64,000 nt of DNA from Bacillus sp. FJAT-18017 (lineage in GTDB: Bacteria > Bacillota > Bacilli > Bacillales > Cytobacillaceae), in assembly GCF_001278805.1 (NCBI RefSeq), contig NZ_CP012602.1, positions 1,405,001-1,469,000 on the forward strand, in the 5' to 3' direction. The first letter of the stretch is position 1. The number at the start of each line of letters is the position of its first letter. Shown here piece by piece: positions 34,811 through 63,003 of the stretch. Position numbers and translations under genes: made by a program. A model generated the notes under the pieces. The model made no database searches. It had not been told where the DNA came from and saw only the letters and a list, made by a program, of their open reading frames with translations.

Positions 34811-35063
34811 ATTGGAAACATCTTGTTTATTTCCTGAAGCTAACCGTTGGGCAATACGTTATTGGTTACATTTCAAATGACTTCAAGAGCTGAAACGTAA
34901 CCACTGGTTCTTATTGGTTACATTTCGCATGTTTTCAGAAGCCAAAACGTTACCAATACGTCTTATTGGTTACATTTCGCATGTTTTCAGAAGCCAAAAC
35001 GTTACCAATGGGTCTTATTGGTCACATTTCGAATGTTTTCAAAAGCCAAAACGTTACCAATGG
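34811..35063. repeat. 52-bp tandem hairpin array, part left of the IS
   Basis: Units start with ATTGG at 34811, 34861, 34913, 34965 and 35017 (last three intervals 52 bp). Each unit opens ATTGGTTAC and closes GTTACCAAT about 45 bp later, leaving a 7-bp linker, with ATTTC and AAAACG inside. The array is cut by the IS at 35064. Confidence 0.9.
35056..35063. repeat. 8-bp target-site duplication, left
   Basis: ACCAATGG immediately before the element, identical to 36445-36452 immediately after it. 8 bp is usual for IS256-family elements. Confidence 0.85.
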
Positions 35064-36444
35064 AGTCAAGTCCACTATCTTGTGTAAATTCCTATACAAT
35101 GGTATATCAGCTTATTTTATTTTTGGTGGAATGAAGGGGGTACCCCCTTCATTCCACCAAAAATTTCGCGCTTCGCGTCTATTTTTTAAAAAGGATCTTT
35201 TTCCTTTCTTGTTCTTCCGTATAGTCAATCAGGATTGCGCCAATCATTCGAAATGCAGATTGGGTATTGGGGAAAATTCGGATTGACCTTTCCCTTCTAC
35301 GGACTTCCTGATTCAACCGTTCCAGCGAATTTGTACTTCGGATATATGGGTGGTACTTGGCAGGTTCGTTAAGGAACTGAATGGCATCCTCGAAGCCTTC
35401 TTCCAATGTTCTCAGTGTACGCTCAAGTTTAGGATTATCCCCAAACCGGTCTATAAATTCATCCTTAAACCGCCTAGCCTCATCCGCCTCAGCTACATCA
35501 AAGATCCTCTTAAGCCCGAATTTCACCTCATCCATTTCTTTTTTGGGCAGATTGGTGAAAATGTTTCTTTTGAAATGAACCAGGCAACGTTGCCAGATGG
35601 TTCCCACGAACTCTTTAGCTATGGCGGCTTTCAGGCCTTTGTGTGCGTCAGAAATAACTATTTTGGGGGATTGGAGTCCTCTTTCCTGAAGGTGCTGGAA
35701 AAAACTCTGCCATGCTTCAAAACTCTCGGAGTGGGCCACTTTTAAGCCTAAGACATCCCGGTGATTGCCTTCATCAATCGCTGTCGCGATATAAACGGCT
35801 TTGGAGACCACGCGGTTATGTTCCCTTACCTTGATATACATCGCATCTGCAAAAATATAAGGATAATATTTAGTGTTAAGAGGCCGGCTGGCCCATTGGC
35901 TCACCACCGGGTCAAGCATTTCCGTCAGAGAAGAAACGAAGGATTTTGAAACACTCTCCCCGCATAATTGTTTGACAATATGCTTGACCTTTCGGGTGGA
36001 TACGCCATTTACAACCATTTCAAGCATAGAGAGGATAAACGCCTGGTCGCATCTTGAATACCTTTCAAAAACGGTTGTCGAAAAGTCTCCACCCCGTGTA
36101 CGGGGCACCTTCAAGGTAACTTTGCCGATACTGAGTAAAAGATCGCGTTCATAATAACCATTTCGGTAGTCGCGGCGAATTGAATTCCGCTCGTAGGCCC
36201 CAGCCTGGAGATACTCGTCCCGCTCCTTTTCCATTACGGCATTCAATACAAGGACAATGGACGCTTTCATCACAGTGTCGATGTTGGAAGCCATTACGGC
36301 TTCTTTTAAAACGTCGGTATTTAGGTTAAACTGAATTTGGGTCATCATTAATTCCTCCACATTGTTTTCGTCGCTGATAACATTGTTGACAAAAGGAATT
36401 AATTTGACCCTTTTTCTTTTTACACAATTATATGGACTTTATCT
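35064..36444 (-). mobile_element. IS256-family insertion sequence, 1381 bp
   Basis: Ends: AGTCAAGTCCACTATCTTG on the left and, reading inward from the right, AGATAAAGTCCATATAATTG; about 16 of 21 bases match, continuing to TTGTGTAAA in both. It encodes one intact transposase on the minus strand and is flanked by ACCAATGG on both sides. Between the gene end and the left boundary is a short GGTGGAATGAAGG / CCTTCATTCCACC hairpin (about 35126-35158). Confidence 0.9.
35179..36348 (-). CDS. IS256-family transposase
   Basis: 389 residues from ATG 36348, 5 bp after GGAGG (an in-frame GTG at 36360 overlaps that site). Mutator-type DDE transposase: VPRTRGGDFSTTVFERYSR, IFADAMYIKVREHN (first Asp), ISDAHKGLKAAI (second Asp), WQRCLVHFKRNIF, and RSTNSLERLNQEVRRRERSIRIFPN with the Glu in NSLERLN. 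Full length with all motifs, so the element may be active. Confidence 0.95.
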   Translation of the reverse strand: MMTQIQFNLNTDVLKEAVMASNIDTVMKASIVLVLNAVMEKERDEYLQAGAYERNSIRRDYRNGYYERDLLLSIGKVTLKVPRTRGGDFSTTVFERYSRCDQAFILSMLEMVVNGVSTRKVKHIVKQLCGESVSKSFVSSLTEMLDPVVSQWASRPLNTKYYPYIFADAMYIKVREHNRVVSKAVYIATAIDEGNHRDVLGLKVAHSESFEAWQSFFQHLQERGLQSPKIVISDAHKGLKAAIAKEFVGTIWQRCLVHFKRNIFTNLPKKEMDEVKFGLKRIFDVAEADEARRFKDEFIDRFGDNPKLERTLRTLEEGFEDAIQFLNEPAKYHPYIRSTNSLERLNQEVRRRERSIRIFPNTQSAFRMIGAILIDYTEEQERKKILFKK

Positions 36445-36510
36445 ACCAATGGGTCTTATTGGTTACATTTCAAATGACTTCAGGAACTGAAACGTTACCA
36501 ATACTATTGG
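36445..36510. repeat. 52-bp array continued, right of the IS, with target duplication
   Basis: ACCAATGG (36445-36452) then a unit start ATTGG at 36458 and a last one at 36506. Removing 1389 bp (element plus one duplication) moves 36458 to 35069, exactly 52 bp after the unit at 35017. Confidence 0.9.
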
Positions 36511-36701
36511 TAACACAACACCTCGCTGACCGTAAAGCGGAACCCAGAAGGAAAGACAGACCTCGCTAATAGGAAGCTGTCATTCAAAATGGGCACGCGT
36601 GCTGCCAATTTTCAAAGTGGGTGGGCCTTTGCCCTTAGATTCCCAACCATTCTTTTGTGAACAGCGGGCAAGCTAATGGAAAAACAAAAAGGGTGATTAT
36701 T

Positions 36702-36941
36702 TTGGCTTTACAGGAGCAGAAACTCGATATTACGGACAGGGTGGTTGGAAAACTAAATAATGGGGAAATAAAGCTGTATCTGGAAAATGAAGAAATCGGC
36801 AGGATTGCTTTAAATGGCATGGCGGAGTTTGAACTCGACAAGCGTTTCGAGGTAGCCCAGCAGCGGATATACCAAAACGTAACCATGCTTAGTGACCCTG
36901 ATGAAAAATACACAGACTGCGACCAGCTTGGCTGGTGCTGA
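36702..36941 (+). CDS. yusG: YusG-like protein (DUF2553)
   Basis: 79 residues from TTG 36702 behind AAAGGGTGA; GTG 36693 in the same frame is possible. Sequence MALQEQKLDITDRVVGKLNNGEIKLYLENEEIGRI, C-terminal DPDEKYTDCDQLGWC with three acidic residues before the Cys pair. Function unknown. The position between gcvH and the Toprim gene matches B. subtilis yusG. Confidence 0.8.
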   Translation: MALQEQKLDITDRVVGKLNNGEIKLYLENEEIGRIALNGMAEFELDKRFEVAQQRIYQNVTMLSDPDEKYTDCDQLGWC

Positions 36942-37096
36942 GAAGGCTCAGGAAATTGCCAGGCAATTTAGGGCTGCCAGGCATATTTCTATTTGCAAAA
37001 TAGGCAGCATGATATAGTGAAAATAAGGTAGGAGACAACACAAAACGTAACAATACGAATAAGCTATTACTAACAACTTTCCTGCAGGTGATGTTA

Positions 37097-37465
37097 ATGA
37101 GCGAAGAATACGCAGACAAGATTTTAATTGTCGAGGGCAAATCGGATAAGAAGAAGGTAATGAGCATTATCAAGGATCGTGTAGAAGTGATTTGTACAAA
37201 TGGCACAATATCGCTTTCGAAGCTTGATGAAATGATCGATTCATTCGGGGACCGGGAAGTGTTTATTTTGGCTGATGCCGATGATGCTGGCGAGAAACTC
37301 CGCCGTCAATTCCGGCGGGAGTACCCTGAGGCTGAGCATTTATATATTGACCGAACCTATCGTGAGGTGGCAACCGCGCCTTACCATCATTTGGCGATGG
37401 TCCTGCTTAGCGCCAATATTGATGTTCATGCCGAATTTTTGGACATAGGCCGCACCGCACCATGA
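37097..37465 (+). CDS. yusF: Toprim-domain protein (YusF-like)
   Basis: 122 residues. Toprim fold: ILIVEGKSDKKKV (Glu) near residue 9 and VFILADADDAGEKLRRQF (DxD) near 55. Similar single-domain Toprim proteins are related to RNase M5 and primase catalytic cores; no substrate is known. ATG 37097 follows CAGGTGA; two other starts upstream overlap that site. Its stop overlaps the thioredoxin start (ATGA). Confidence 0.88.
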   Translation: MSEEYADKILIVEGKSDKKKVMSIIKDRVEVICTNGTISLSKLDEMIDSFGDREVFILADADDAGEKLRRQFRREYPEAEHLYIDRTYREVATAPYHHLAMVLLSANIDVHAEFLDIGRTAP

Positions 37466-37773
37466 AAAACTGGACAAGCGCCGAGTTTGCTGCTTTTCTC
37501 GAAGGCGATGGAACCGGTTTGGCTTACTTTTACACACCTTTGTGCGGCACCTGCCAGGTAGCTTCAAAAATGCTTGAGGTCGTTTCTTCACTGTTCCCCG
37601 ATCTGGAAATCGGCAAAACAGACCTGAACTATGCCCCAGACATTGCTGAGGCATATGAAATTATGAGTGTCCCTTGTCTTTTCTTAATTAAAGAAGGCAA
37701 GGTTGCCGAGTCCATCTACGCGTTCCAATCTGTCCCTTACCTGCTGGAAAAAATCAATACCGTTATAAAATAA
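37462..37773 (+). CDS. yusE: Thioredoxin-family protein (YusE-like)
   Basis: 103 residues. Redox site FYTPLCGTCQVASKML gives CGTC at about residues 30-33; the cis-Pro loop is MSVPCLFLI near 73. No signal peptide, so it is cytoplasmic. Translationally coupled to the Toprim gene by a 4-base overlap. Confidence 0.92.
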   Translation: MKNWTSAEFAAFLEGDGTGLAYFYTPLCGTCQVASKMLEVVSSLFPDLEIGKTDLNYAPDIAEAYEIMSVPCLFLIKEGKVAESIYAFQSVPYLLEKINTVIK

Positions 37774-37802
37774 GCAGATGCTCTCCAGCATCTGCTTTTT
37801 GC
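37772..37802 (+). terminator. Terminator after yusE
   Basis: AAGCAGATGC / GCATCTGCTT arms, TTT. Confidence 0.9.
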
Positions 37803-38013
37803 GTTATTTCTAAGTGACTTTGTATCCACTGGAGAACGAGTAGAGTAACTATTAGAGGTGGCGGAGAGACCTAGACATACATATACATAAGGAACATTAC
37901 CCCAGGAAATAAAATTCTGTTTTCCCAGTGTGTTCCACTGTTTACAAAAAGTGTCTGGCAGTTTAGAATATTTAGGGAAGCGAAATAATTACTGCCAGCA
38001 AGGGGAGAAACGG

Positions 38014-39285
38014 ATGGCTTTTTACAGACAGTGGGCCGTGCAGTACCGTACATATAACAAGAATATCCGTCTTAGCATGGCGGCTAATATGATTACCCAG
38101 GTGGGCCTGGGTATTTTCATTGTCATTTATAATTTTTATGTCCGCGAGCTTGGTTATACGGAGGCAGTGAATGGCCAAATTATTTCGATGGCCTCACTCG
38201 CTACGGCAATCATTCTTGTTCCAGCAGGAATGATAGGTGACCGGTTCGGAAGAAAACGTGTAATTTTGGCAGGCATTTTTGTATCTGGATTACTCCTTTT
38301 TTCAAGGGCAATTGCGACCGATGGGACAACCCTCATTTACCTTGCCTTTGCCGCAGGGCTTGCGGGCGCCTTCCTTCAGGTATCAGGAATTCCTTGGCTT
38401 GCTGAAAACTCCGATCCCTCGGAGCGGGTGAACCTGTTTGCCCTGCAGGCAGCGTTAATGACAGCCGCGAGTGTTATTGGAAACCTGCTTGGTGGTTTGC
38501 TTACTGATTTCTTCAGTTTATTTATGCCAGAGCTTTCAAGCATTAGACTGACTTTATTGATTGGGGCTGGAATCTATATAACCGGGGTAATTCCAGCATT
38601 CAAGTTCCAGGCGCCAATGAAACGAACAGAAGCTTCGCCATTGCCGGCAGGCTCTCCTGGTAAAAAAAGCGGCTTTAGCAAATCTGGTTTTAAAATCATC
38701 GCACTCTTTGCCTTTTCCCAGATGCTGATTGGTTTTGGAGCGGGGCTTGTTATCCCTTATTTGAATCTTTATTTTGCCGGCAGGTTCTCGGCATCTGCCT
38801 CGACAACTAGTTTCATTATATCGCTAGGACAGGCTGCAACTGCATTTGCAATGTTTATCGGTCCCCAGGTCGTCAAGCGGGTGGGCGAGGTCAGGGCGGT
38901 TGTGTATCTGCAATTGTCATCCTTGCCATTTTTAATACTGACTGCCTACACCGAAAATTTATTCCTTGCGGCGGTCGGATTTTTATTCAGGCAGGCGTTG
39001 ATGAATGCAGGAAACCCAATTCAAAGTTCACTAATTATGTCGAAAGTCGACGATGGAATGAAGGGACTTGCGAATTCGATCAACCAGACAGTCTTCAACC
39101 TCGGATGGGCGCTTATGGGTCCTGTCTCGACCGGGATTGTCGTCCAGTATGGCAACTACTGGGGTTATGCATATGTATTTTCCATCACAGCCGTTCTTTA
39201 CTTAATTGGTTCCGTATACTTTCTTATCGTGTTTGGAAGAAATCAAATCAAGAAGCCGTCTTCTGCTGCACAAAAGACTGGTTAA
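38014..39285 (+). CDS. MFS transporter
   Basis: 423 residues from ATG 38014 after AAGGGGAG (the frame extends 28 codons upstream without a ribosome site). Twelve predicted membrane segments. The MFS loop 2-3 motif is GMIGDRFGRKRVI near 68; a central cytoplasmic loop is rich in Ser, Gly and Lys near 205-220. Substrate unknown. Interrupts the B. subtilis-like yusE-yusD order, so it may be an insertion in this lineage. Confidence 0.88.
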   Translation: MAFYRQWAVQYRTYNKNIRLSMAANMITQVGLGIFIVIYNFYVRELGYTEAVNGQIISMASLATAIILVPAGMIGDRFGRKRVILAGIFVSGLLLFSRAIATDGTTLIYLAFAAGLAGAFLQVSGIPWLAENSDPSERVNLFALQAALMTAASVIGNLLGGLLTDFFSLFMPELSSIRLTLLIGAGIYITGVIPAFKFQAPMKRTEASPLPAGSPGKKSGFSKSGFKIIALFAFSQMLIGFGAGLVIPYLNLYFAGRFSASASTTSFIISLGQAATAFAMFIGPQVVKRVGEVRAVVYLQLSSLPFLILTAYTENLFLAAVGFLFRQALMNAGNPIQSSLIMSKVDDGMKGLANSINQTVFNLGWALMGPVSTGIVVQYGNYWGYAYVFSITAVLYLIGSVYFLIVFGRNQIKKPSSAAQKTG

Positions 39286-39292
39286 TCTACTG

Positions 39293-39320
39293 GGCCTGCT
39301 GACATCAGCAGGTCTTTTTG
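39293..39320 (+). terminator. Terminator after the MFS gene
   Basis: GGCCTGCTGA / TCAGCAGGTC arms and TTTTT. Confidence 0.88.
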
Positions 39321-39461
39321 CAAATCGAAAAAATAATTTTGTTCTCAAAGCTATTATTGAAAAAGGGCTGTTAATTTTCGAAGAGTTTAAGAAAGTTGTC
39401 GAACGAAATGTGAAGGATATTTCACCGGAGGTATGGAATGTAGTAGGGGGAGGGATACGAT

Positions 39462-39782
39462 ATGATTGCCGAACTGCAGAGATTCATTGAAAGCTATAAT
39501 CAAAAGAAGCAAATGGCGGGACTATTTAGGTCCAAGCGGCCTTTGATTGTGGATTTGGGGGAATGGTCTCTGGAAATTTCCGGGAAATCTGCGCACCTTT
39601 CGCGCGAACTCCCCAAAGCTGAAGCTGATTTTATAATGGTTAAAGGATCGCCAGAAGCTCTTAAAGAGTTACTTTATGGAAAAACGGGCTTGCGGGTCTT
39701 GGCTGCTCAAGGCTTTTTAATTGTAAAAGGCTCTTTTCGGACGGTGCTTTTGCTTGAGTCGATATTTCTTTTATCGAAATAA
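39462..39782 (+). CDS. yusD: SCP2 sterol-carrier-like protein (YusD-like)
   Basis: 106 residues. Pattern LIVDLGEWSLEISGKSAHL....ADFIMVKGSPEALKELLYGKTGLRVLAAQG fits a small SCP2-type lipid-binding domain as in B. subtilis YusD, which also precedes metNPQ. GGGGGAGGG 7 bp before ATG. No function established. Confidence 0.75.
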   Translation: MIAELQRFIESYNQKKQMAGLFRSKRPLIVDLGEWSLEISGKSAHLSRELPKAEADFIMVKGSPEALKELLYGKTGLRVLAAQGFLIVKGSFRTVLLLESIFLLSK

Positions 39783-39803
39783 TAATAAAATTAAAATAAA
39801 AGA

Positions 39804-39832
39804 TTGACGAGAAAAAAAGTGTAAGATAAAAT
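39804..39832 (+). promoter_or_regulatory. Promoter 1 of the met region
   Basis: TTGACG (39804-39809), 17 bp, TAAAAT (39827-39832), ahead of the first S-box. Confidence 0.7.
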
Positions 39833-39874
39833 AAGTTAAAATCCTAGCTCGATATTTTTAAAAAATTAATATTG

Positions 39875-40008
39875 CTTATCCAGAGAGGTGGAGGGACTGG
39901 CCCTATGAAGCCCGGCAACCGGTTTATACACGGTGCTAATTCCAGCAGGGCATGTGCTCTGCAGAGATAAGGAGAGACATCCCCTCTTCTTGGAGTGGAT
40001 TTTTTATT
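39875..40008 (+). ncRNA. SAM-I (S-box) riboswitch, first of two
   Basis: CTTATC..GATAAG closes P1 (39875 to about 39972). Inside are AGAGAGGTGGAGGGACTGGCCCTATGAAGCCCGGCAACC split over P2/P3, GGTGCTAATTCCAGCA, all S-box hallmarks. Its own terminator ATCCCCTC / GGAGTGGAT with TTTTTT lies at about 39979-40008. Nothing but a second promoter and a second S-box follows, so its direct product is a short RNA unless readthrough occurs. Confidence 0.93.
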
Positions 40009-40055
40009 TTTTAGAAAAATAATTTCCGCATTAAAAAATTTCCAAAAGCTCTTTA

Positions 40056-40084
40056 TTGACATGATTTTTTAACCATGTTACGAT
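40056..40084 (+). promoter_or_regulatory. Promoter 2, between the two S-boxes
   Basis: TTGACA (40056-40061), 17 bp, TACGAT (40079-40084). Confidence 0.7.
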
Positions 40085-40116
40085 TGCACACATAATTAAC
40101 TGAATAATAAATGTTG

Positions 40117-40283
40117 CTCTTATCAAGAGAGGTGGAGGGAAGTGCCCGATGAAGCCCGGCAACCGTCACTGGATAGTATCCAGATGAAATGGTGCCAATT
40201 CACGCAAAGCGTTTGCTTTGGGAGATGGGAGAAAGGATATATTTGACTATGCCTTTCTGCCCGCGTGCAGAAAGGCATTTTCT
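40117..40283 (+). ncRNA. SAM-I (S-box) riboswitch, second, for metNIQ
   Basis: CTCTTATC pairs with GATGGGAG (to about 40230). Internal AGAGAGGTGGAGGGA, GATGAAGCCCGGCAACC and GGTGCCAATTC are canonical. Terminator ATGCCTTTCTGC / GCAGAAAGGCAT, TTTTC at 40250-40283. It would shut off metNIQ when S-adenosylmethionine is abundant. Confidence 0.96.
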
Positions 40284-40377
40284 ATTCCTTAGAATATTAA
40301 AGTAAAACTTTCAAACGATAGAAAAGTATAGAGTCGAGATTGACGGGTAATTAAATGGAAGTAAAGAGGGTGATAGG

Positions 40378-41403
40378 ATGATTTCGATAAAAAATGTCAG
40401 CAAGCTGTTCCCTTCGAAGCAGGGAGCGCTCAAAGCTGTTGAAGATGTTAATCTTGAAATAAACGAAGGTGAAATCTTTGGTGTGATAGGCTACAGCGGC
40501 GCCGGAAAAAGTACATTAATCCGAATGCTGAACAGGCTGGAAACACCAACAGAGGGAACCATAACAATCGATGATAGAGAAATCTCAAAAATAAAGGGCA
40601 AAGAGCTCCGGAAGGCCCGCATGGAAATCGCAATGATTTTTCAGCACTTCAACCTTCTCTGGTCACGAACTGTCCGGGAAAACATTGCATTCCCGCTAGA
40701 AATTGCCGGTGTATCAGGGGCTGCCCGCAAAAATCGGGTTGATGAACTGATTAAACTGGTTGGCCTAGAGGGAAGGGAGAATGCTTATCCTTCACAGCTC
40801 TCCGGAGGACAGAAGCAGCGTGTTGGCATTGCCAGGGCACTGGCCAATAATCCGAAGGTGCTGCTCTGTGATGAAGCAACCTCGGCACTTGATCCGCAAA
40901 CGACCGATTCAATCCTTGATCTGTTGGTCGATATTAACAAGCGTCTTGGGCTGACAATTGTTCTGATTACACACGAAATGCATGTTATCAGGAAAATTTG
41001 CCATCGGGTTGCTGTTATGGAAAGCGGCAAAATTGTTGAGCTTGGCCCAGTACTTGATGTATTTAGAAATCCTCAACAGCCAATTACGAAACGATTTGTC
41101 CAGCAGGTCACTGAGCCGGAGGAGACAAAGGAGACGATTGAGCATCTCCTGGAGCAATATCATTCCGGACAAGTGATTCAGCTAACGTTCGTAGGAGAAT
41201 CGACCGAGCAGCCATTGATCACCAACTTGATCAGGCAATACGGTGTTACAATCAATATCCTTCAAGGGAAAATTTCGAAAACCCAGAGTGGCTCATATGG
41301 GACTTTGTTCGTCCATCTTGATGGCACGGATGAGGAAATCGGAAAGGCGCTTGAGTATATTCAATCCCAGCAGATTGGCGTGGAGGTGATTGCGAATGCT
41401 TGA
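40378..41403 (+). CDS. metN: Methionine ABC transporter ATP-binding protein
   Basis: 341 residues, usual MetN length. Walker A GYSGAGKST near residue 38, Q-loop IFQHFNLL, signature LSGGQKQRVGIARAL near 141, Walker B VLLCDEATSALDP, and the C-terminal ACT-like NIL domain (LTFVGESTEQPLITNLIRQYGVTINILQGKI) that senses methionine. Behind the second S-box, so expressed on methionine/SAM shortage. Confidence 0.97.
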   Translation: MISIKNVSKLFPSKQGALKAVEDVNLEINEGEIFGVIGYSGAGKSTLIRMLNRLETPTEGTITIDDREISKIKGKELRKARMEIAMIFQHFNLLWSRTVRENIAFPLEIAGVSGAARKNRVDELIKLVGLEGRENAYPSQLSGGQKQRVGIARALANNPKVLLCDEATSALDPQTTDSILDLLVDINKRLGLTIVLITHEMHVIRKICHRVAVMESGKIVELGPVLDVFRNPQQPITKRFVQQVTEPEETKETIEHLLEQYHSGQVIQLTFVGESTEQPLITNLIRQYGVTINILQGKISKTQSGSYGTLFVHLDGTDEEIGKALEYIQSQQIGVEVIANA

Positions 41404-42064
41404 GGAACTTTTTCCGAACGTCGACTGGGAAGACATCTGGGAGGCAACGATTGAAACGCTTTATATGACAAGCATTTCGGTTGTCATTACCTTTATTCTT
41501 GGAATTATTCTTGGTTTGTTGCTTTTCCTGACAGGCAAAGGAAACCTTTGGGAAAATGCTTTTATTAATAAAATTATTGCTGCTTTTGTTAACGTGTTCC
41601 GTTCCATCCCCTTCATCATTCTAATAGTACTGCTGATTCCATTTACGATTTGGCTGGTCGGCTCGATGATTGGCGAGGAAGCTGCATTGCCTGCCTTGAT
41701 TATTGGATCGGCACCGTTTTACGCAAGAATGGTTGAAATCGGGCTCCGTGAAATTGACAAAGGTGTAATTGAAGCCGCTAGATCAATGGGTGCTTCGACC
41801 TGGACGATTATCTGGAAGGTACTGCTTCCTGAATCGATGCCGGCACTTGTGTCTGGTATCACAGTTACAGCGATTGCACTTGTCAGCTATACTGCAATGG
41901 CTGGGGCGATTGGTGCAGGGGGACTTGGGAACCTTGCGTATCTTGAAGGTTTCCAGCGCTCAAGGCCGGATGTGACTCTCGTTGCAACAATTGTCATCTT
42001 GATTATCGTTTTCATCATACAGATTATTGGAGACACATTTACTAAAAAGCTTGATAAGAGATGA
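41396..42064 (+). CDS. metI: Methionine ABC transporter permease
   Basis: 222 residues from ATG 41396 after TGGAGGTGA, overlapping metN by 8 bases. Five membrane helices; EAA loop IEAARSMGASTWTIIWKVLLPES near 130 couples to MetN. Corresponds to B. subtilis MetP (YusB). Confidence 0.96.
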   Translation: MLEELFPNVDWEDIWEATIETLYMTSISVVITFILGIILGLLLFLTGKGNLWENAFINKIIAAFVNVFRSIPFIILIVLLIPFTIWLVGSMIGEEAALPALIIGSAPFYARMVEIGLREIDKGVIEAARSMGASTWTIIWKVLLPESMPALVSGITVTAIALVSYTAMAGAIGAGGLGNLAYLEGFQRSRPDVTLVATIVILIIVFIIQIIGDTFTKKLDKR

Positions 42065-42132
42065 TTCCTTCGGCCCTATTGTGGCCGGTTCATAAAAAAA
42101 TACTTTCACCCATATAAAAGGAGAGGAAACAA

Positions 42133-42988: not shown

Positions 42989-43021
42989 GGCAGGCTCCCG
43001 GTTGGGGGCCTGTTTTTTTGG
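42989..43021 (+). terminator. metNIQ terminator
   Basis: GGCAGGCTCCC / GGGGGCCTG arms and seven T. Confidence 0.9.
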
Positions 43022-43059
43022 TCGAAAGATTATGTGGATGGGGCCTCGGTTACTTGATG

Positions 43060-43186
43060 TGTCCTGAAAAATTAAAAATCTGTCCTGTATCGTACGGGAA
43101 ATGTCCTGCATTTTTCGGGAAATGTCCCGTATATCGAAAAATCTGTCCTGATTCTTAAAAAATCTGTCCTGATTCAAAATACGAAC
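43060..43186. repeat. 21-bp tandem repeat, six copies
   Basis: TGTCCTG or TGTCCCG recurs at 43060, 43081, 43102, 43123, 43144 and 43165, exactly every 21 bp, joined by A/T-rich fillers (AAAAATC or CGGGAAA). No coding frame or ribosome site is associated. Confidence 0.88.
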
Positions 43187-43746: not shown

Positions 43747-43833
43747 TTGTGAAATCGCAACTTTAAAAATGATTTGAATTGAGTGCTGGCTACTCCGAAA
43801 TGGTGCTGCTTTTTGGAGTATACCGCGGTTCGC

Positions 43834-44040
43834 GGATTAATCTTCTAACCAGCACCATTGATTAATCCAGTAAAACGTATTTGGTGGATTAATCTCCTCG
43901 GCAGCGGCGCGAATTAATCCAGTAAACAGCATTTTGTGGATTAAACTCCTTATTATCCCCATGATTATTCAAGAAAACAGAACTTTGTGGATTAATCACC
44001 ACTTCAATCACAACAATTAACCCAGTAAATCCCCCGCGCA
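43834..44040. repeat. 52-bp tandem array with GGATTAAT/ATTAATCC arms
   Basis: GGATTAA starts at 43834, 43886, 43938 and 43989 (52, 52, 51 bp). Each is followed about 35 bp later by ATTAATCC or a near match, then AGTAAA....TTTGT. The minus-strand frame 43889-44158 runs through this array and is not accepted as a gene. Confidence 0.85.
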
Positions 44041-51406: not shown

Positions 51407-51605
51407 ATTGGAACCATTTCAACCCTTGCAGCACGACGAAATGTGTCCAATAAGCGTTATTGGAACCATTTCTCCTCTTGCAGCAAGACAAAATGTACTC
51501 AATGAACCGTATTGGAACTATTTCGTCCTTTTTAGCAAGGCAAAATGTGACCAATGATCTGTATTGAAATCATTTCAAGTTCTAAAGCCGGGCAAAACGT
51601 TTCCA
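51407..51605. repeat. 52-bp tandem hairpin array, related to that at 34811
   Basis: ATTGG or ATTG starts at 51407, 51459, 51511 and 51563, exactly 52 bp apart. Each unit runs ATTGGAACCATTTC ... AAATGT..CCAAT (45 bp) plus a 7-bp linker, the same plan and similar bases as the array split by the IS. The rest of the gap to 51794 shows nothing clear. Confidence 0.92.
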
Positions 51606-51794
51606 ATGAATTGCGCGTTACTGAGCAAATGTGTAACCATAAGCCGAATAAGAGCTCGTTATAAATGAAATATGTGTTCAACGCTAACCGTTAACTAGTT
51701 ATCAAAGAATTTTTCAAGAAGAAACGCAACTAGCTATCTAAGTATTTTTCGTTGAAATCAAAAATAGAATGGCTGGGCTAAGGGAGTTAGGCCA

Positions 51795-54821: not shown

Positions 54822-54825
54822 AAGA

Positions 54826-54856: not shown

Positions 54857-54950
54857 TGAAATAACAAAAAATCCCAAAATTTGAGCAAAAATGTAAGCGG
54901 ATACTTAAAAACATTGGATTTAAACATATTTTAAAATAATAAATATATCT

Positions 54951-54979: not shown

Positions 54980-55048
54980 GGGACTATGCAAATAATCAGA
55001 AAACTTTTAATCTTGCATTTTTTCGTTGCATCTTAGGAGGAGTCAATA

Positions 55049-56557: not shown

Positions 56558-56558
56558 T

Positions 56559-56666
56559 ATGTCAGGTGATGCAATCGCCATGATGGTCATCGGAATGGTC
56601 ATTCTCTGGGGCGGCCTCGTAGCCAGCCTCGCAAACGCCGTCATAAAATCTAAAAGAGCTAAATAA
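56559..56666 (+). CDS. MetS-type small subunit of the NSS transporter
   Basis: 35 residues: MSGDAIAMMVIGMVILWGG then LVASLANAVIKSKRAK. One membrane helix and a basic cytoplasmic tail, as in methionine/alanine importer small subunits. AAAGGGAGGTG lies inside the end of the transporter gene, and ATG starts one base after its stop, so translation is coupled. Confidence 0.9.
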   Translation: MSGDAIAMMVIGMVILWGGLVASLANAVIKSKRAK

Positions 56667-56671
56667 ATGCT

Positions 56672-56717
56672 GAAGGGGTCTGACCCTTACCCCCAGGGGT
56701 AAGGGTCAGACCCCTTC
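56672..56717. terminator. Perfect 22-bp inverted repeat between convergent genes
   Basis: Arms GAAGGGGTCTGACCCTTACCCC at 56672-56693 and its exact reverse complement at 56696-56717, separated by CA. A T-run follows on the plus strand. Its inner GGGTCTGACCC is itself palindromic and also occurs in the 131-bp array. Acts as terminator for both sides, presumably. Confidence 0.9.
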
Positions 56718-56719
56718 TT

Positions 56720-57709
56720 TTACTTCTTCCTGTTTTTCTTTTTATCCATCCGCTCCCACATCCGGAGATGGGGATATGGATCAAACGACCATTCGGTATA
56801 GCCGTTATCTTTGTACATCCCGTAGTGCAAGTGGGGAGGGAACTTGCCAGAGGTTCCAGGCGGTCCGTAACCCGAGCTTCCGACTCCGCCAATTAGCATC
56901 CCAGGTTCAACGATGTCACCTATCTTTAAATCCTTCGCAAAGCCGCTCAAATGGGCAAAGTAGTGATAATTATTATTAAGGTCGCGGATCCCGATTCTCC
57001 ACCCGCCGAACCGATTCCAGCCTTTCATTTCGATTATGCCATAGCTAGTCGCCCGTACGGGAACTCCGTAACCCGCAAATATGTCAGTGCCTTCATGCAT
57101 TCGCCGTCCACCCCAGCCACGGGCATCACCCCATGTATTTTTGTAGCTGTGGTTCATTCTATAAGGCACTGGGAATGCATTTCCCTCAAGATCGATCCGG
57201 CCATACTTATTGTAGATTTTTGCTATCCCCATGATAATCCCGACCGCTTTATCCCTGTGATAATATTCCCAGAGCGCTATCCGGAAATTATCGTTGTCAT
57301 ATCCATATTTCAGTACATGATTAGAAAAAGCTTGAAGGACATCTTCATCTTCAGTTGGGCTTGCTTTCCGATTGCCATTGGCATCAACTCCCACTCCGCC
57401 AAAGAAGGCAATCGACCCTGGCTTTTTATCCTGAGGATTCGGATTGGCAAGTCCGGCCCATTTTTCTGGGCTGAAATAAATGGAGACGGCCCCTTCAGGA
57501 TCAGGGAGATCTTTTCTGGCTAGCCTGATATTCCGTTCATATTGGTCAACGGCTGCAATGTAAAACCAGGGAATCTGCGTGACTGCTTCGTTTTTTTTAT
57601 AAAGCTCTATCCGCTTTTTATATAAATCAGCAAGCTCTGCCTCTTGTGGGGCGGCAAGGGCATTTCCAGCCAAAGCAAAGGATAGTGCCAGCAATAATAG
57701 TACCCTCAC
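56720..57709 (-). CDS. lytH: M23 endopeptidase LytH (YunA)
   Basis: 329 residues from GTG after GGAGGA. Signal peptide VLLLLALSFALAGNALA, then a helical region and an M23 domain: GRRMHEGTDIFAGYG (HxxxD) near 208 and HLHYGM (HxH) near 300. LytH trims stem peptides in spore cortex during sporulation; it is made under late sporulation control in B. subtilis. Full length with zinc ligands intact. Confidence 0.94.
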   Translation of the reverse strand: MRVLLLLALSFALAGNALAAPQEAELADLYKKRIELYKKNEAVTQIPWFYIAAVDQYERNIRLARKDLPDPEGAVSIYFSPEKWAGLANPNPQDKKPGSIAFFGGVGVDANGNRKASPTEDEDVLQAFSNHVLKYGYDNDNFRIALWEYYHRDKAVGIIMGIAKIYNKYGRIDLEGNAFPVPYRMNHSYKNTWGDARGWGGRRMHEGTDIFAGYGVPVRATSYGIIEMKGWNRFGGWRIGIRDLNNNYHYFAHLSGFAKDLKIGDIVEPGMLIGGVGSSGYGPPGTSGKFPPHLHYGMYKDNGYTEWSFDPYPHLRMWERMDKKKNRKK

Positions 57710-57728
57710 AGGGCGTCCTCCTTTAATC

Positions 57729-57883
57729 TCTAGCTCCAGCGCCTATCGCCTAGCAAACTTCAGGTCTCCTTCCTACGATAAGTCATGCACGAATGCGCTT
57801 GTCGCTCTTCGTGATTCCTTTATCTCAGTCGAAGCCCCTCCAGTTTGTACGGCGATAACCAAGGCGCTTCCGCTTTTGTCTTT
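57729..57883. repeat. Dispersed intergenic repeat, copy 4
   Basis: CTAGCTCCAGCGCCTATCGCCTAGC ... GACCAAGGCGCTTCCGCTTTT. Compared with the copy at 27499, about 130 bp are missing exactly between two CTTTATC repeats, so the CCATCAGC hairpin module is absent. The rest of the gap to 58100 shows no other feature. Confidence 0.75.
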
Positions 57884-58117
57884 TTCCTATACGATAGTTT
57901 GTCGCCAGAAGGCAGTGTTCATAACGTCAATAATTGCCAGATGATTATAAAAAGGACATAAGAATGAAAGACTATTTATAGGATGATTTGATAAAAACCA
58001 GTAATGATAAGGGTTCATAATGGGAAGACAAGTTCTTTTCTTGAATGGAACGGCTTTATTGTGTTACAGTACCAAAAGGGCACCAATATTTATACATAGA
58101 AATTGGGGTGGCATGAA

Positions 58118-59047
58118 TTGACTACAGGCAATGAATATACACGCAAGCCGGAATGGCTGAAGATAAAATTGAATACGAATGAAAATTATACTGGGCTTAA
58201 AAAAATGATGCGCAGCAAAAACCTACATACAGTTTGCGAGGAAGCACGCTGCCCGAATATCCATGAATGCTGGGCTGTCAGACGTACAGCTACCTTTATG
58301 ATTCTTGGGGATGTTTGCACTCGTGCCTGCCGCTTCTGCGCAGTTAAGACAGGCCTTCCTACAGAACTGGATTTACAGGAACCAGAACGAGTTGCTGATT
58401 CTGTATTTCAAATGAATTTGAAACACGCTGTCATTACTGCGGTAGCGCGAGATGATTTGCGTGACGGAGGAGCAGCTGTTTTTGCCGAAACGGTTAGAGC
58501 GATCCGCCGCAAAAATCCGTTTACTAGCATTGAAGTTCTTCCTTCCGATATGGGTGGGGTTGAAGAAAATTTGAGAATGCTTATGGATGCACGCCCGGAT
58601 ATCCTGAACCATAATATTGAAACAGTCAGAAGGATGACCCCGAAAGTCCGCGCACGCGCAACCTACGATCGCTCACTCGAGTTCTTGCGCAGGGCGAAAG
58701 AAATGCAGCCGGATATCCCAACCAAATCCAGTCTGATGATTGGTGTCGGCGAAACATGGGATGAAATTCTTGAAGTAATGGATGACCTCCGCACCAATAA
58801 CGTCGATATCATGACTATCGGACAATACCTGCAGCCAACCAAAAAACATCTTAAGGTTGCAAAATATTATACTCCTGATGAATTCAACCAGCTTAAAGAG
58901 ATTGCCCTTTCAAAAGGCTTCAGCCACTGTGAGTCAGGCCCAATGGTCCGGTCTTCCTATCATGCGGATGAACAAGTCAACTCAGCCACAAAGGCAAGGG
59001 CTGCTCTTGCAGCGTCAGAAGCAAATAAAGAAGTACTAGAAGCATAA
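58118..59047 (+). CDS. lipA: Lipoyl synthase
   Basis: 309 residues from TTG 58118, 6 bp after GGGGTGG; the frame extends 5 codons to another TTG that overlaps this site. Radical SAM enzyme that inserts two sulfurs into octanoyl groups on GcvH and E2 proteins. Auxiliary cluster [12 protein letters not shown] near 45, radical SAM cluster CTRACRFC near 70, and [10 protein letters not shown] with the final Ser near 285. Confidence 0.96.
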
Positions 59048-59062
59048 GTTAAATTTTACAAT

Positions 59063-59096
59063 GGGTATCCGCGACTGCGGGTGCCTTTTATTTTTC
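59063..59096 (+). terminator. lipA terminator
   Basis: GGGTATCCGC / GCGGGTGCC arms with G-U pairs, then TTTTATTTTT. Confidence 0.8.
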
Positions 59097-59116
59097 ATAA
59101 AATCGGTCGACATAGA

Positions 59117-59148
59117 CAAAAAGGCGCCTGGCAAACACCAGACGCCTA
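59117..59148 (-). terminator. yutC terminator
   Basis: On the minus strand, AGGCGTCTGG / CCAGGCGCCT then TTTTTGTC. Confidence 0.8.
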
Positions 59149-59161
59149 GCAGCCAGCCTAC

Positions 59162-59800
59162 TTATTGTCCCATGTGGCGAAGTTCTTCTTTATCGTCCGG
59201 AGTCTCCCCATTTTCATTTTCGGATTCATTCATCCGCTTGCCTTGAGGAGATTTTTTCATCTCCTTAATAACGGCGGCAATGGCCGCATCCGAATTTTTA
59301 CTTGATGTATTTAAGCTAGACAGGGTTTCGATATCATTCATTAGCATTTTGTTATCCGATACATAAACGTGGAAAAAGCGGGGTACAAACGACATGGCGG
59401 TCCTTTTTACCTGATCTGCTGTTAATTCACGATTGTTTGTATCGGTTTCATATGCAATAAGGACTTCTTCATCGGTAACGAGGGTTACAACTTCATTGAC
59501 ATTCGGCAAGTCGGTACTTATCCTGCTGATGTGTCCGGCCAATTCCTGGCGATCAAGCGGCGCCTCATGATCGTTTTTCGCTGAACGGTCTCCCATAATC
59601 GGGCTTTTATAATGGCGTACAAAACCGAAACGCTGGCTTTTATCCGCTTTCTTTTCCTCGCCCTGGTCCAATACTTCGGCGCGGCGATTGTTTGTATACA
59701 TATGTGTGTTGTTCCCGTAACGGTCAGCACCAGCATTTTCTCCTCCACAGCCAGCAAGCAACAGGCCGCAAAGGGAAAGCACATACAGCTGCTTTTTCAT
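59162..59800 (-). CDS. yutC: YhcN/YlaJ-family sporulation lipoprotein (YutC-like)
   Basis: 212 residues from ATG 59800, 9 bp after GGAGG (the frame runs 42 codons upstream, no ribosome site). Lipobox LLLAGCGG near residue 16. The middle region LAGHISRISTDLPNVNEVVTLVTDEEVLIAYETD resembles the BON-like domain of YhcN/YlaJ lipoproteins found in spores. Convergent with lipA, as in B. subtilis. Confidence 0.88.
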   Translation of the reverse strand: MKKQLYVLSLCGLLLAGCGGENAGADRYGNNTHMYTNNRRAEVLDQGEEKKADKSQRFGFVRHYKSPIMGDRSAKNDHEAPLDRQELAGHISRISTDLPNVNEVVTLVTDEEVLIAYETDTNNRELTADQVKRTAMSFVPRFFHVYVSDNKMLMNDIETLSSLNTSSKNSDAAIAAVIKEMKKSPQGKRMNESENENGETPDDKEELRHMGQ

Positions 59801-59912
59801 GGCAACGCACCTCCTACCAGAAGTATTGCCAATCACAGGATTTTTTCTATTAGTAAAAGGATGGGAATCGGTTATAATGGAATAAAGATTTGCCCGTAAA
59901 TGAGGTGATAGA

Positions 59913-60188
59913 ATGGTCGTAGTCAATAATACAGCTTACGAAGTCGTTGAGGATTTCAGGGATGGATTCAACGAGGATGCGTTCAAGGAAAGGTACAGTG
60001 AAATCCTGGCAAGATATGATTACATTGTTGGTGACTGGGGGTATGGACAGCTTCGCTTGCGGGGCTTTTTCGATGACCAGAATCAGAAAGCTACTTTTGA
60101 TACAAAAATTAGTACATTGACCGAGTACTTATACGAATTCTGTAACTTCGGCTGTGCCTACTTCGTTGTGAAAAGAGTGAAGAAATAA
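59913..60188 (+). CDS. yutD: DUF1027 protein (YutD)
   Basis: 91 residues. VNNTAYEVVEDFRDGFNEDAFKERYSEILARYDYIVGDWGYGQLRLRGFFDD is the YutD core; C-terminal YEFCNFGCAYFVVKR has a paired Cys. GAGGTGATAGA before ATG. Function unknown. Confidence 0.9.
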   Translation: MVVVNNTAYEVVEDFRDGFNEDAFKERYSEILARYDYIVGDWGYGQLRLRGFFDDQNQKATFDTKISTLTEYLYEFCNFGCAYFVVKRVKK

Positions 60189-60237
60189 ACATCATGTGGG
60201 GTTTATTTTAGGTAACCGCCGTAAAACGTGAAAGTAA

Positions 60238-60275
60238 ATAGGGACAGCGTGGTCTAGGGGCTGTCCCTATTTTTG
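60238..60275. terminator. Bidirectional terminator between yutD and the DUF3055 gene
   Basis: AATAGGGACAGC / GCTGTCCCTATT arms flanked by A- and T-runs. Confidence 0.88.
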
Positions 60276-60288
60276 CAAAAGAAAAGTA

Positions 60289-60555
60289 TTAAATAAACTC
60301 AGACAGGAAGGACCTTAATTCTTCCGCATCGTCTTCCGATAGCTGAAAGGCGAATTCAAGATAGCCTTCCTCTTTCAAATCATCGTCTCCGATAATTGCA
60401 AACCTGCTCCCTTGCATATCAAGAACCAGCGTCTTGCCGAAGTGCCTGTCGGACTGAATCAAAGCCAGGTCGAATCGGGTGTTGTCGCCAACGAAGCTGA
60501 CAAACCTTGTCCTTGTCTGCTCGATATCATCATATAAGTAAAAACGCTCTGCCAT
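60289..60555 (-). CDS. DUF3055 (SAV0927-like) protein
   Basis: 88 residues. AERFYLYDDIEQTRTRFVSFVGDNTRFDLALIQSDRHFGKTLVLDMQGSRFAIIGDDDLKEEGYLEFAF matches the DUF3055 family by recognition; acidic protein (many D/E). AAGGAG before the ATG. Function unknown. Confidence 0.82.
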   Translation of the reverse strand: MAERFYLYDDIEQTRTRFVSFVGDNTRFDLALIQSDRHFGKTLVLDMQGSRFAIIGDDDLKEEGYLEFAFQLSEDDAEELRSFLSEFI

Positions 60556-60748
60556 GGGTATACTCCTTCAAAAAATGTTTTCTCTCTTCATCTTACCAAA
60601 ACATGAGAGTGATTTACACGAAAATGCCATTGGGAGATCTATAAGGTCAAGCCGACAAATTCTGTAAAAATTTGCCCTCGAAAAATCACGGTTTTTGCAA
60701 AATTGTGATACAATACTTAGGTAGGCACACCGGAGAGGGATGAAATGA

Positions 60749-62047
60749 ATGGTCCGTTTTTATGCGGCAAAAGCCAAACAGCTTTTGCAATGGGGAAAGA
60801 TTGTTTTGCCCCTTTCATCAATAAAGTTCTATCCTCCACAATTCGTTCTTCGGAACCCGGTTGTCCAGGGGGTTAAATTAGCCTTTAAAGATGGAAACGA
60901 AGCAGCAGTTATTGTTTTTAATATAAAAAACATCCGAGACATCGCAGAATATCTTGGACCAATACAGTTTCCGAAGTTTATGATGCGCTTTAAACAAATC
61001 TTCCGTCAGGCAATCGAGCTTGAGGTAGATAAAGACGATATTATTACCCTGCATGACTTTTTTGTGGACGGGATTTCCCTCTACTTAAAGGTAAGCCAGG
61101 ATCATGGAATTTCCTCAATCGAAACCCTCATGAGTACAGTCGCCAATGAGGCCAGAAAGACTCTGCATTCAGAGTTTGACGGTGTCAGCATGGTACTTGA
61201 GAATGGTTATATGTTTATTGAGAAGAACTCTTTTTCCATTCACGAGGCTGTCCAGAAGTCCCATAAACAGGCAGTAGCCATGGCCGAAAAGAGGATTGAC
61301 TCAGAATTTAATGAAATGGTTTTTGTGATGGGAAAAATCGTTTCACAAAAGGAAATTTTCCTGCTTGCCCAGCCCATAATTGATGTTGCAACAAAAGAAA
61401 TACGTGCCTGGGAGATGCTTACTCGTGGCCCGGCGGGAACCATGCTCGAAAATCCTTTAACACTATTTTCAGTAGCAAGGCAGACCGGAAAGCTGTATGA
61501 ACTTGAAATGGTCGTTTTTGAAAAAGCACTAAACCAAATTGCATCAATTGGCTGCAAGGATGATGTCTTCATTAATTTCACCCCGCTTACAATGGGGAAC
61601 AGCCGCTTTATCCGTGATGTAAAAAGACTGTTTCAAAACCATAAGACGATATCACCGAAACAAATTACTTTTGAAATAACTGAACGGGATTCGATTGAAG
61701 GGATGCGGGACTTTATCTATAACATCAAAGTCCTGCGCCTCATGGGCATCCGGATCGCTGTTGACGATACAGGCTCCGGCTATGCAAGCTTGAACACGAT
61801 TAGCGAAGTAATGCCTGATATTATTAAAATCGATCGTTCCGTCATTCAAAATATCGATAAGAATGCCGTAAAGGAATCAATGTTGAAGGGGCTGCTGCTT
61901 GTAGCGAAAGAGGCCGGCTCGCTTGTTGTTGCGGAAGGTATTGAAAATGAGGAAGAAGCTTCCGTCCTATCCCGCAATAATGTTGATCTCGCCCAGGGTT
62001 TCTTTTACGCCAAGCCAGCTATGCTGCCTAAAAAAATCGCAACATAG
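60749..62047 (+). CDS. EAL-domain c-di-GMP phosphodiesterase
   Basis: 432 residues. Residues about 50-190 form a GGDEF-like fold lacking a GGDEF motif, so no cyclase activity. The EAL domain has all key residues: EMLTRGP (Glu 222, EML in place of EAL), NFTP, EITERD, AVDDTGSGYASL, IKIDRS, VAEGIENEEE and AQGFFYAKP. Should hydrolyse c-di-GMP and so oppose the riboswitch-sensed signal at 8305-8391. GGAGAGGGATGA lies before ATG. Soluble, no membrane segment. Confidence 0.9.
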   Translation: MVRFYAAKAKQLLQWGKIVLPLSSIKFYPPQFVLRNPVVQGVKLAFKDGNEAAVIVFNIKNIRDIAEYLGPIQFPKFMMRFKQIFRQAIELEVDKDDIITLHDFFVDGISLYLKVSQDHGISSIETLMSTVANEARKTLHSEFDGVSMVLENGYMFIEKNSFSIHEAVQKSHKQAVAMAEKRIDSEFNEMVFVMGKIVSQKEIFLLAQPIIDVATKEIRAWEMLTRGPAGTMLENPLTLFSVARQTGKLYELEMVVFEKALNQIASIGCKDDVFINFTPLTMGNSRFIRDVKRLFQNHKTISPKQITFEITERDSIEGMRDFIYNIKVLRLMGIRIAVDDTGSGYASLNTISEVMPDIIKIDRSVIQNIDKNAVKESMLKGLLLVAKEAGSLVVAEGIENEEEASVLSRNNVDLAQGFFYAKPAMLPKKIAT

Positions 62048-62058
62048 GAAGTGGAATT

Positions 62059-62496
62059 ATGTATTTTGTAGACCGTGGATTAATGGAACAAAAACTCCAA
62101 TATATCGAACGCCAAACAACACTTTTCCGAAGCCGGGAAGAGTGGGAAACCGAGCTTGAACAAGCCGCGCTTGAACGGATTACACACATGCTTGCCGAGT
62201 CGGTCCTAGACGTTGGCAATGCTATGATTGATGGTTTCATCATGCGTGACCCTGGCAGCTACGAAGATATTATCGACATCCTTCTGGATGAAGAAGTTAT
62301 CGACAGTACTATAGCCGAAAGCATGAAAGTGCTAATTAGCCATAGAAAACAGCTTGTCCAGTTTTACACAGCCATCGACCACGAGACCATGGCCGCAGAC
62401 CTTACTAGAGTTCTCGGTGAAATTGAAGCCTTCCCTGCAAAGGTTAGGACATACCTCGCCAATGAACTAGGGCCCGTATCTGCTTTCGTAAACTAA
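62059..62496 (+). CDS. yutE: DUF86/HepT-like protein (YutE) with altered motif
   Basis: 145 residues, all-helical HepT-like fold. In HepT toxins the catalytic motif is RX4HXY; here the equivalent HRKQLVQFY reads RX4QXY, so ribonuclease function is probably lost. No MntA-type nucleotidyltransferase partner is adjacent. In B. subtilis a DUF86 protein (YutE) is in the same place. GGAAGTGG before ATG. Confidence 0.82.
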   Translation: MYFVDRGLMEQKLQYIERQTTLFRSREEWETELEQAALERITHMLAESVLDVGNAMIDGFIMRDPGSYEDIIDILLDEEVIDSTIAESMKVLISHRKQLVQFYTAIDHETMAADLTRVLGEIEAFPAKVRTYLANELGPVSAFVN

Positions 62497-62517
62497 ATTG
62501 GGAATATTGATTAAATG

Positions 62518-62545
62518 AGAGGCCGCCTAATAAGCGGTCTCTTTA
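62518..62545 (+). terminator. yutE terminator
   Basis: AGAGGCCGC / GCGGTCTCT arms and TTT. Confidence 0.82.
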
Positions 62546-62584
62546 CTTGAATAAGGGGGCAAGGACAATTTGCTTGTGGGCAAG

Positions 62585-62743
62585 TACCAAAATGTACTCG
62601 AAACCCAATTTCAAGGACATTTCACCCGTCAGGCATCACCAAAATGTACTTGAACATCAATTTGAAGGACATTTCATCTGGGGGTCGGCACCGAAATGTA
62701 CTCGAAGAGCTATTTCAAGGAAAAATCATTTGTAGGGCAGCAC
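62585..62743. repeat. 52-bp tandem array with AAATGTAC/ACATTTC arms
   Basis: AAATGTACT at 62590, 62642 and 62694, exactly 52 bp apart. Each unit contains ACATTTC about 28 bp later (AAGGACATTTC); the third diverges at that arm. Confidence 0.88.
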
Positions 62744-62747
62744 CTTA

Positions 62748-63003
62748 ATGAAGACGGGAACAGCCGTCAAAAAAGTGGTTAGCCGACCTTCATCTTGCTT
62801 ATGAAGACGGGAACAGCCGTCAAAAAAGTAGTTAGCCGGCCTTCATCTCGCTAATGAAGACGGGAACAGCCGTTAAAAAAGTGGTTAGCCAGCCTTCATC
62901 TTGCTTATGAAGACGGGAACAGCTGTTAAAATAGTGGTTAGCCTACCTTCATCTAATTTATGAGTGCGGGAACAGCCGCTAAATTCATCGTTAGCCCAAT
63001 GCT
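62748..63003. repeat. 53-bp tandem array, five copies
   Basis: ATGAAG (last: ATGAGT) at 62748, 62801, 62854, 62907 and 62960, exactly 53 bp apart. Nested arms: ATGAAG/CTTCAT outside and GACGG/CCGTC inside, with AAAAAGTGGTTAGCC between. A 46-bp hairpin plus 7-bp linker. No frame is open through it. It directly follows the previous array. Confidence 0.94.

Follow-up and report, generated by a model that had tools for sequence, protein, structure and literature searches.

Among the described repeats of bacterial genomes, the bacterial interspersed mosaic elements (BIMEs) and repetitive extragenic palindromic (REP) sequences of enterobacteria and pseudomonads are the closest in layout to the elements considered here, namely tandem arrays of a 52-bp, dyad-symmetric unit found in a 64,000-nucleotide stretch of the Bacillus sp. 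FJAT-18017 chromosome (contig NZ_CP012602.1, positions 1,405,001–1,469,000; hereafter the window). Both kinds of element are intergenic and present in many copies, with regularly spaced inverted sites and tandem clusters, and passages in three papers describe BIMEs and REPs as binding several proteins (PMC2817692, PMC3733652, PMC8266576). In contrast, the arms of the 52-bp unit are far apart and mostly lack GTAG, the units stand almost always in tandem at one period, and they are not linked to genes for the REP-associated tyrosine transposases (RAYTs). The ACTAGTGA repeats found at RAYT genes of this genus are likewise tandem, intergenic and present in the same genomes, but they differ in sequence, have main periods of 108–130 bp and adjoin the RAYT genes.

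Other known repeats are more distant. Miniature inverted-repeat transposable elements and the bcr1-type repeats of Bacillus are also short, non-coding and dispersed, with terminal inverted repeats; the 52-bp units differ from them by their 45-bp size, their tandem arrangement and the lack of target duplication at six singletons. Clustered regularly interspaced short palindromic repeats (CRISPR) share the regular period and palindromic parts, but in the present arrays the whole unit repeats, centre and linker included, and there are no unique spacers. Arrays of phased operators or nucleoid-protein sites share a spacing near helical turns and arms that change more slowly than centres; unlike these, the 52-bp arrays diversify in sequence by family while keeping their geometry, and binding to them is putative. 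No array matched Rfam, with the whole window searched at the gathering score and positions 43000–63100 at E up to 1, and full-text searches of a limited collection of open-access papers found no description of such an element.

The 52-bp unit and its half-site

Each unit runs from a 13-bp arm across a centre of 19 bp to a mirror arm, again of 13 bp, and is followed by a linker of 7 bp. When consensus units were registered by arm pairing alone, 71 of 72 reached 8/13 pairs, and the dyad score had its mode at 10/13 against 7/13 in shuffled units. This registration revealed a common degenerate half-site, T-N4-GAC-N2-TT, with T2 in 74%, G7 in 63%, A8 in 69%, C9 in 66%, T12 in 54% and T13 in 62% over these 71 units. 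L, G and F numbers denote loci, genomes and sequence families, G000 being the genome of the window; the unit statistics exclude L007 and L014 (103-bp GCTCATATGAG repeats), L029 and L048, and arrays of the close relative G007 were kept out of the family lists as near-duplicates of those of G000.

The two arms change together between families. I aligned, without gaps, 43 two-unit segments of 97 bp from six species; a forty-fourth, L100, the sole one from G001, was omitted as odd. Arm cells are paired at 83.5% in these segments, against 55.3% when shuffled and 31–46% when slid, although the paired fraction is partly built in, since the segments were preselected for 52-bp spacing and at least 17/26 pairs. 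Arm covariation is 0.645 versus 0.188, and all four Watson-Crick pair types occur at half-site positions 3–6. Pooled family searches also gave a strong compensatory signal, but their loose matching mixes neighbouring families, and in a generic histogram of inverted-repeat spans the odd values around 45 were no more than weakly enriched.

I tentatively read these arrays, at somewhat less than even confidence, as tandem dyad-symmetric protein sites, helically phased on duplex DNA, which a putative dimer would bind and along which it would oligomerise. In this model the unit would present two inverted half-sites of ∼13 bp (W-T-N4-G-A-C-N2-T-T) with 19 bp between them, 7 bp joining one unit to the next, and N4 would be family-specific and the same in both half-sites. 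As 52 bp is about five turns of B-DNA, all half-sites of an array would share one helical face, and the protein would hold the intergenic DNA in a lattice that organises the nucleoid or marks sites, and would not act as a promoter operator. Matched change at positions 3–6 would then be a change in specificity of one protein reading both half-sites, and arrays would spread in lineage-specific waves, their copy number moving by whole units. Because the degenerate half-site is shared, the families likely descend from a single old superfamily in which the letters have since been replaced.

Each of the six arrays in the original prediction is present in the window, with slightly adjusted coordinates. 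These, and the interruption of the first, are as follows:

34811–35061, no strand: F2 array of 5 units (ATTGGTTACATTT / AAACGTTACCAAT), 52 bp, first step 50
35064–36443, minus strand: putative insertion sequence (IS) within the F2 array, read by eye, with a 393-aa open reading frame (ORF) at 35179–36360
36458–36502, no strand: F2 terminal unit to the right of the IS, a single unit of the split array
43829–44028, no strand: F3 array of 4 units (GGATTAAT / ATTAATCC), 52 bp
50310 to about 50446, no strand: F9 array of 2.7 units (CTATGT / ACATAG), 53 bp
51407–51607, no strand: F2 array of 4 units (ATTGGAACCATTT / AAATGTGACCAAT), 52 bp
62558 to about 62750, no strand: F4 array of about 3.7 units (TTCAAGGACATTT / AAATGTACTCGAA), 52 bp
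62748 to about 62983, no strand: F7 array of about 4.5–4.8 units (ATGAAGACGGGAAC / CCGACCTTCAT), 53 bp

The IS is bounded by a 9-bp repeat, TACCAATGG, at 35055–35063 and 36444–36452, a duplication, and the counterpart F2 array of G007 is uninterrupted and without the IS. The F3 array at 43.8 kb is missed by Tandem Repeats Finder (TRF) at default settings and detected with laxer scoring. As had been claimed, the left 31 kb is free of such arrays: TRF found no array of 49–55 bp in 1–31000. The window contains five sequence families, not six, since the 34.8 and 51.4 kb arrays belong to one (ATTGG, F2), and most families have a common half-site core. Likewise, of a fixed period without a fixed sequence, the near-constant 52-bp geometry stands, whereas the degenerate half-site runs through most families. 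Descent from a single family, which had been named as contrary evidence, applies only weakly, in the form of a probable old superfamily.

The window also contains two SAM (S-adenosylmethionine) riboswitches in tandem, at 39873–39973 and 40117–40231 on the plus strand (Rfam RF00162), and a c-di-GMP-I (cyclic diguanylate) riboswitch at 8304–8391 (Rfam RF01051).

Period, placement and spread of the arrays

The original prediction proposed a period histogram of the genome, which I computed with TRF at lax scoring for the window together with 60 stretches, each 20 kb long (1,264,000 bases in all, or 24% of the 5,265,381-bp chromosome). Among 484 non-overlapping arrays there is a sharp peak at 51–53 bp, formed by 39 arrays of many families (6, 29 and 4 at 51, 52 and 53 bp), with a single array each at 48 and 50 bp and zero at 44–47, 49 and 54–62 bp. 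Five further arrays have periods of 103–104 bp, two of which are a different repeat: L007 (18679–19216) and L014 (1552–1890) are intergenic 103-bp tandem arrays with GCTCATATGAG, near twice 52 bp and lacking the 45-bp dyad. Extrapolation from 32 arrays in 59 stretches (the window and one chosen stretch being excluded) gives about 140 arrays per genome. Their density is uneven, the 60 kb of G000 at 1511853–1571852 (L163–L165) being without any array of 49–55 bp. For the 41 arrays of sample and window, 75 of 111 steps are of 52 bp, 16 of 51, 14 of 53 and six of 49–50.

Placement is intergenic and indifferent to gene direction. With genes called simply as longest ORFs, 38 of the 39 arrays overlap called genes by less than 25%. 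The 41 arrays lie in 24 co-directional, six divergent and five convergent contexts, with three overlapping called ORFs and three undetermined, which matches the background gaps (533 co-directional, 164 divergent, 155 convergent). The distance from array to start codon is at least 61 bp, with a median of 137 (38 distances), so the arrays are not promoter-proximal; distances to stop codons run from −25 bp upward, with a median of 91 (35 distances; arrays overlapping called ORFs were excluded from both).

A second set of intergenic arrays clusters at a period of 21 bp, with 27 members and four more at 42 bp. Intergenic 21-bp arrays of several families (ATTCAGGACATTTT, CTATGGGCACTTTC), with two helical turns per unit, occur at window positions 43057–43175 and in L045, L025, L028 and L012, and in L010 a seven-copy 21-bp array (19522–19668) lies between F1 52-bp units. 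The half-site beats 80% of shuffles in 10 of 17 high-scoring intergenic arrays of 20–21 or 40–42 bp, compared to 13/43 other intergenic, 9/31 low-scoring intergenic, 2/7 high-scoring coding and 14/78 low-scoring coding arrays. This is suggestive of the 20–21-bp and 52-bp arrays being one system, with direct and inverted arrangements of a site.

The peak holds in all eight genomes of the genus, that of the window included, and arrays of this period also occur outside the family, elsewhere in the order. In 80–107 kb of syntenic sequence, all eight carry arrays of 49–55 or ∼104 bp, mostly of other sequences (G000 11, G007 10, G005 5, G001 4, G002 6, G003 1, G004 3, G006 4), although in two of the G001 arrays and one of the G006 arrays the dyad is equalled by many shuffled versions. 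G007, a close relative (median protein identity 97.5%), has most array positions and families in common with G000, with copy numbers shifted by whole units: F7 has about five in G000 and about one in G007, and F1 changes from one to three or four between close species. In the more distant species arrays are mostly in different gaps, and gaps lacking one are usually the shorter. The gap of the 50.3 kb array, before a gene that I take to be DUF72-like, holds four different families in G000, G005, G002 and G004 (p 0.015).

I searched whole genomes with a two-unit covariance model, for which E-values are rough and per-genome counts are floors (27–150 candidates scored). With the threshold at E 0.01, the model matches 31 of 61 relatives (8/8 of the genus, 17/29 other members of the family and 6/24 from other families of the order); at E 1e-4 it matches 28 of 150 genomes from the order, spread over 12 families and 18 of 84 genera. 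Across the phylum G000 itself is the sole match among 119 genomes; of the others, the 20 given individually fall outside the order, and 98 are counted only in bulk. Twenty matches were fetched, 11 from four other families (G041, G044, G046, G055), two from G057, of yet another family, and seven from genera of the same family (G010, G018, G019, G023), and 52-bp arrays are thus also present in other families of the order, in a patchy manner. In 16 of the 19 matches with a computed dyad (one G023 locus was unregistered), both arms carry GAC at position 6 or 7, while the outer arms vary (ATGAAG, ATGATG, CTATTA, CTATCG, TTAATA). Since the model fixes the unit lengths, the geometry recovered is biased towards its own. 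At both G057 loci, 45-bp hairpins are joined by linkers alternating between 7 and 18 bp, which are 11 bp, or one helical turn, apart. Six viral contigs matched the F1 pattern, none with a 52-bp array, and looked like chance intragenic matches (their ORFs were not called); one array stretch searched by BLAST against plasmids, and one against phages, gave no match.

Divergence of arms, centres and linkers

Orthologous arrays of G000 and G007 were compared in a full count, comprising every unit of the 10 arrays that could be anchored (the 34.8 kb array is unanchored) with the intergenic flank kept apart, and in a narrower count of 27 hand-picked, well-aligned units from nine arrays. In the full count the arms differ at 67/851 positions (7.9%), the centres at 91/614 (14.8%) and the linkers at 26/162 (16.0%), the arms thus changing at roughly half the rate of the centres (p 3.7e-5). 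In the hand-picked units the values are 44/702 (6.3%), 64/514 (12.5%) and 15/122 (12.3%) (arm versus centre p 2e-4), with 209/1740 (12.0%) for the intergenic flank (arm versus flank p 1.4e-5). Fourfold sites differ at 1098/8326 (13.2%).

A preserved spacer length is suggested, as is phasing of the half-sites. Insertions or deletions of fewer than 20 bases number five in 1627 array positions versus 20 in 2365 flank positions in the full count (p 0.04), and three in 1338 versus 19 events of 1–49 bases in 1740 flank positions for the hand-picked units (p 0.004). The architecture had been proposed to be under selection. This is supported in part, by the slow arms, by the turn-sized linkers of G057 and by a spacer length that is somewhat better preserved than that of flanking DNA (p 0.004 for the hand-picked units, 0.04 for all).

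Arms decay on one side at a time. Within arrays, excluding those with fewer than three usable units or weak dyads, 123 arm variants are one-sided and seven two-sided, four of these being paired, where about 4.5 two-sided variants are expected if the arms vary independently. No paired double change between G000 and G007 was found among 42 changed pairs of the hand-picked units.

Explanations for the arrays

Slow arms with fast spacers, one-sided decay, indifference to gene direction and a linker change of one turn together argue for a protein on one face of duplex DNA and not for paired RNA. Phased protein binding was among several options in the original prediction and is the best fit of these, while repeated RNA hairpins are the worst. 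For transcribed hairpin arrays, acting as sponge, stabiliser or processing signal, one may cite that the units are able to pair and that arms covary between families, but I consider them improbable: gene contexts equal the background, arm mismatches show no effect of gene direction (G-T to A-C 13:19 between plus-strand genes, 10:22 between minus-strand genes), compensation within arrays does not exceed independence, and Rfam has no match in the arrays of the window. An apparent strand bias in wobble, whole units seeming rich in A-C on the plus strand, was discarded, as the arms alone have little bias (G-T 46, A-C 59, all contexts).

The main rival is that the arrays are selfish elements akin to BIMEs or to REPINs (REP doublets forming hairpins), the 45-bp inverted repeat being a single-stranded hairpin copied by a putative nuclease or transposase and the arrays by-products of its replication. 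I give this a minority share of belief; it explains dispersal better than protein sites on duplex DNA do, and the slow arms worse. Families are scattered among numerous gaps and vary from species to species, and the choice of gap is near random. Arrays of F2, F3 and F4 begin with the 5' arm in 20 of 25 cases and end with the 3' arm in 21 of 25, which would make the whole hairpin the unit (F1, matched more loosely, shows no such pattern), and by eye, centres and linkers within a family look alike from gap to gap. On the other side, orthologous arms changing half as fast as the adjacent centres is unexpected of inserted junk. Solitary units make up only six of 109 (four families; one was isolated by the IS and one by a 21-bp array), and none of the six has a target duplication, although this sample is small with some doubtful members. 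For the array at 34.8 kb there is no recent copy, its best match in another gap being at 79% (a comparison made for this array only).

A RAYT version of this rival is disfavoured. RAYT-like genes are found in all eight genomes of the genus, but the tandem repeats beside them are the ACTAGTGA repeats, detected by TRF in L062 (2098–2618), L175 (2023–2687), L177 (2031–2314), L182 (2009–2380) and L183 (2100–2616), with periods of 108–130 bp and sub-periods of 30–54 bp, and as a hairpin in L187. Among the results listed for 20 Y1/RAYT-like loci (L188 partly masked), no 52-bp family array is recognisable beside a RAYT gene, and of the family motifs the G000 loci L061–L064 contain just a single F3 half-site. 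The sub-periods of 53 and 54 bp in L177 and L182 count against a clean separation of the two kinds of array. RAYT presence does not track the arrays: a match to NF047646 (RAYT) occurs in 26 of 31 genomes with arrays and 20 of 30 without (p 0.15), several of the five array-bearing genomes that lack it being drafts. The tag is also scarce, GTAG/CTAC occurring in 3/71 and CGTC/GACG in 15/71 consensus units, with only the arms scanned. The RAYT genes and ACTAGTGA arrays are possibly a REP-RAYT system of Bacillaceae in which CTAG words replace GTAG. In the window, a 131-bp tandem array of 3.7 copies at 31714–32199, with CTAG/ACTAGT words, resembles the ACTAGTGA arrays.

Two further explanations appear still less probable than RNA hairpins. 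Tyrosine-recombinase core sites have a general plan of arm-7-arm, and an array of such sites, with 13-bp inverted arms around a 7-bp crossover, would agree with the layout and with copy number moving in whole units by recombination; I find this quite doubtful, because most F2, F3 and F4 arrays end in whole hairpins (arm-centre-arm) rather than in 13-7-13 and because linkers of 18 bp occur in G057. Neutral minisatellites amplified by slippage, which I rate lowest, are in keeping with copy numbers that differ between close species and with end units that look more degenerate by eye, and conflict with a period and dyad constant across gaps, families and species and with arms slower than centres.

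Several results weigh against protein sites on duplex DNA. The half-site is weak in information (4.0 bits over 14 positions), F3, F8 and F9 fit it poorly, and it beats 95% of shuffles in only 4 of the 17 high-scoring intergenic arrays of the shorter periods. Half-site spacings of about 30 and 22 bp are near, not exactly, 31.5 and 21; 36 of the 111 steps deviate from 52 by 1–3 bp, and some families are off 52 altogether, at 51 (G001) or 53 (F7, F9). Covariation between families is also expected from hairpins. The sharing of gaps between lineages is near chance (3 versus 2.1 expected, p 0.34), which is unexpected under a fixed architectural role. In the full count arms are no slower than the intergenic flank (7.9% versus 9.3%, p 0.23), as expected of selfish elements, nor are they in the seven better-aligned arrays (8.1% versus 10.0%, p 0.15), where the indel contrast is also only p 0.08. 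Centres are faster than the flank (p 1e-4 in all arrays, 4e-4 in those seven), which may mean that the flank is itself constrained or that unlike copies were aligned. In the hand-picked units, arm positions 1–7 changed more (31/378) than positions 8–13 (13/324), though position 7 belongs to the core. With the arm-versus-flank difference lost and the indel contrast weaker in the full count, my confidence in the protein-site interpretation went from even to slightly under even, and that in selfish hairpins rose a little within its minority share.

The protein-site interpretation has a broader extension, to which I likewise give a minority share of belief: in a previously undescribed chromosomal lattice system of Bacillus-order bacteria, a putative DNA-binding protein that diversifies fast may co-evolve with the arrays, some 140 of them in this genome, the recognised letters changing by species and the geometry being kept. 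Eukaryotic centromere DNA and its proteins offer a comparison for such co-evolution. The usual bacterial repeat families are defined by sequence, whereas the 52-bp arrays are defined by geometry, with length and dyad constant over at least 12 families of the order. Repeat finders based on sequence will report such arrays as many small unrelated families and overlook the common rule. A constant geometry with changing arm letters points to a trans-acting factor of drifting specificity. As a shaper of the chromosome, such a factor would represent a new nucleoid component of Gram-positive bacteria, and as a nuclease, a new partner for a mobile element.

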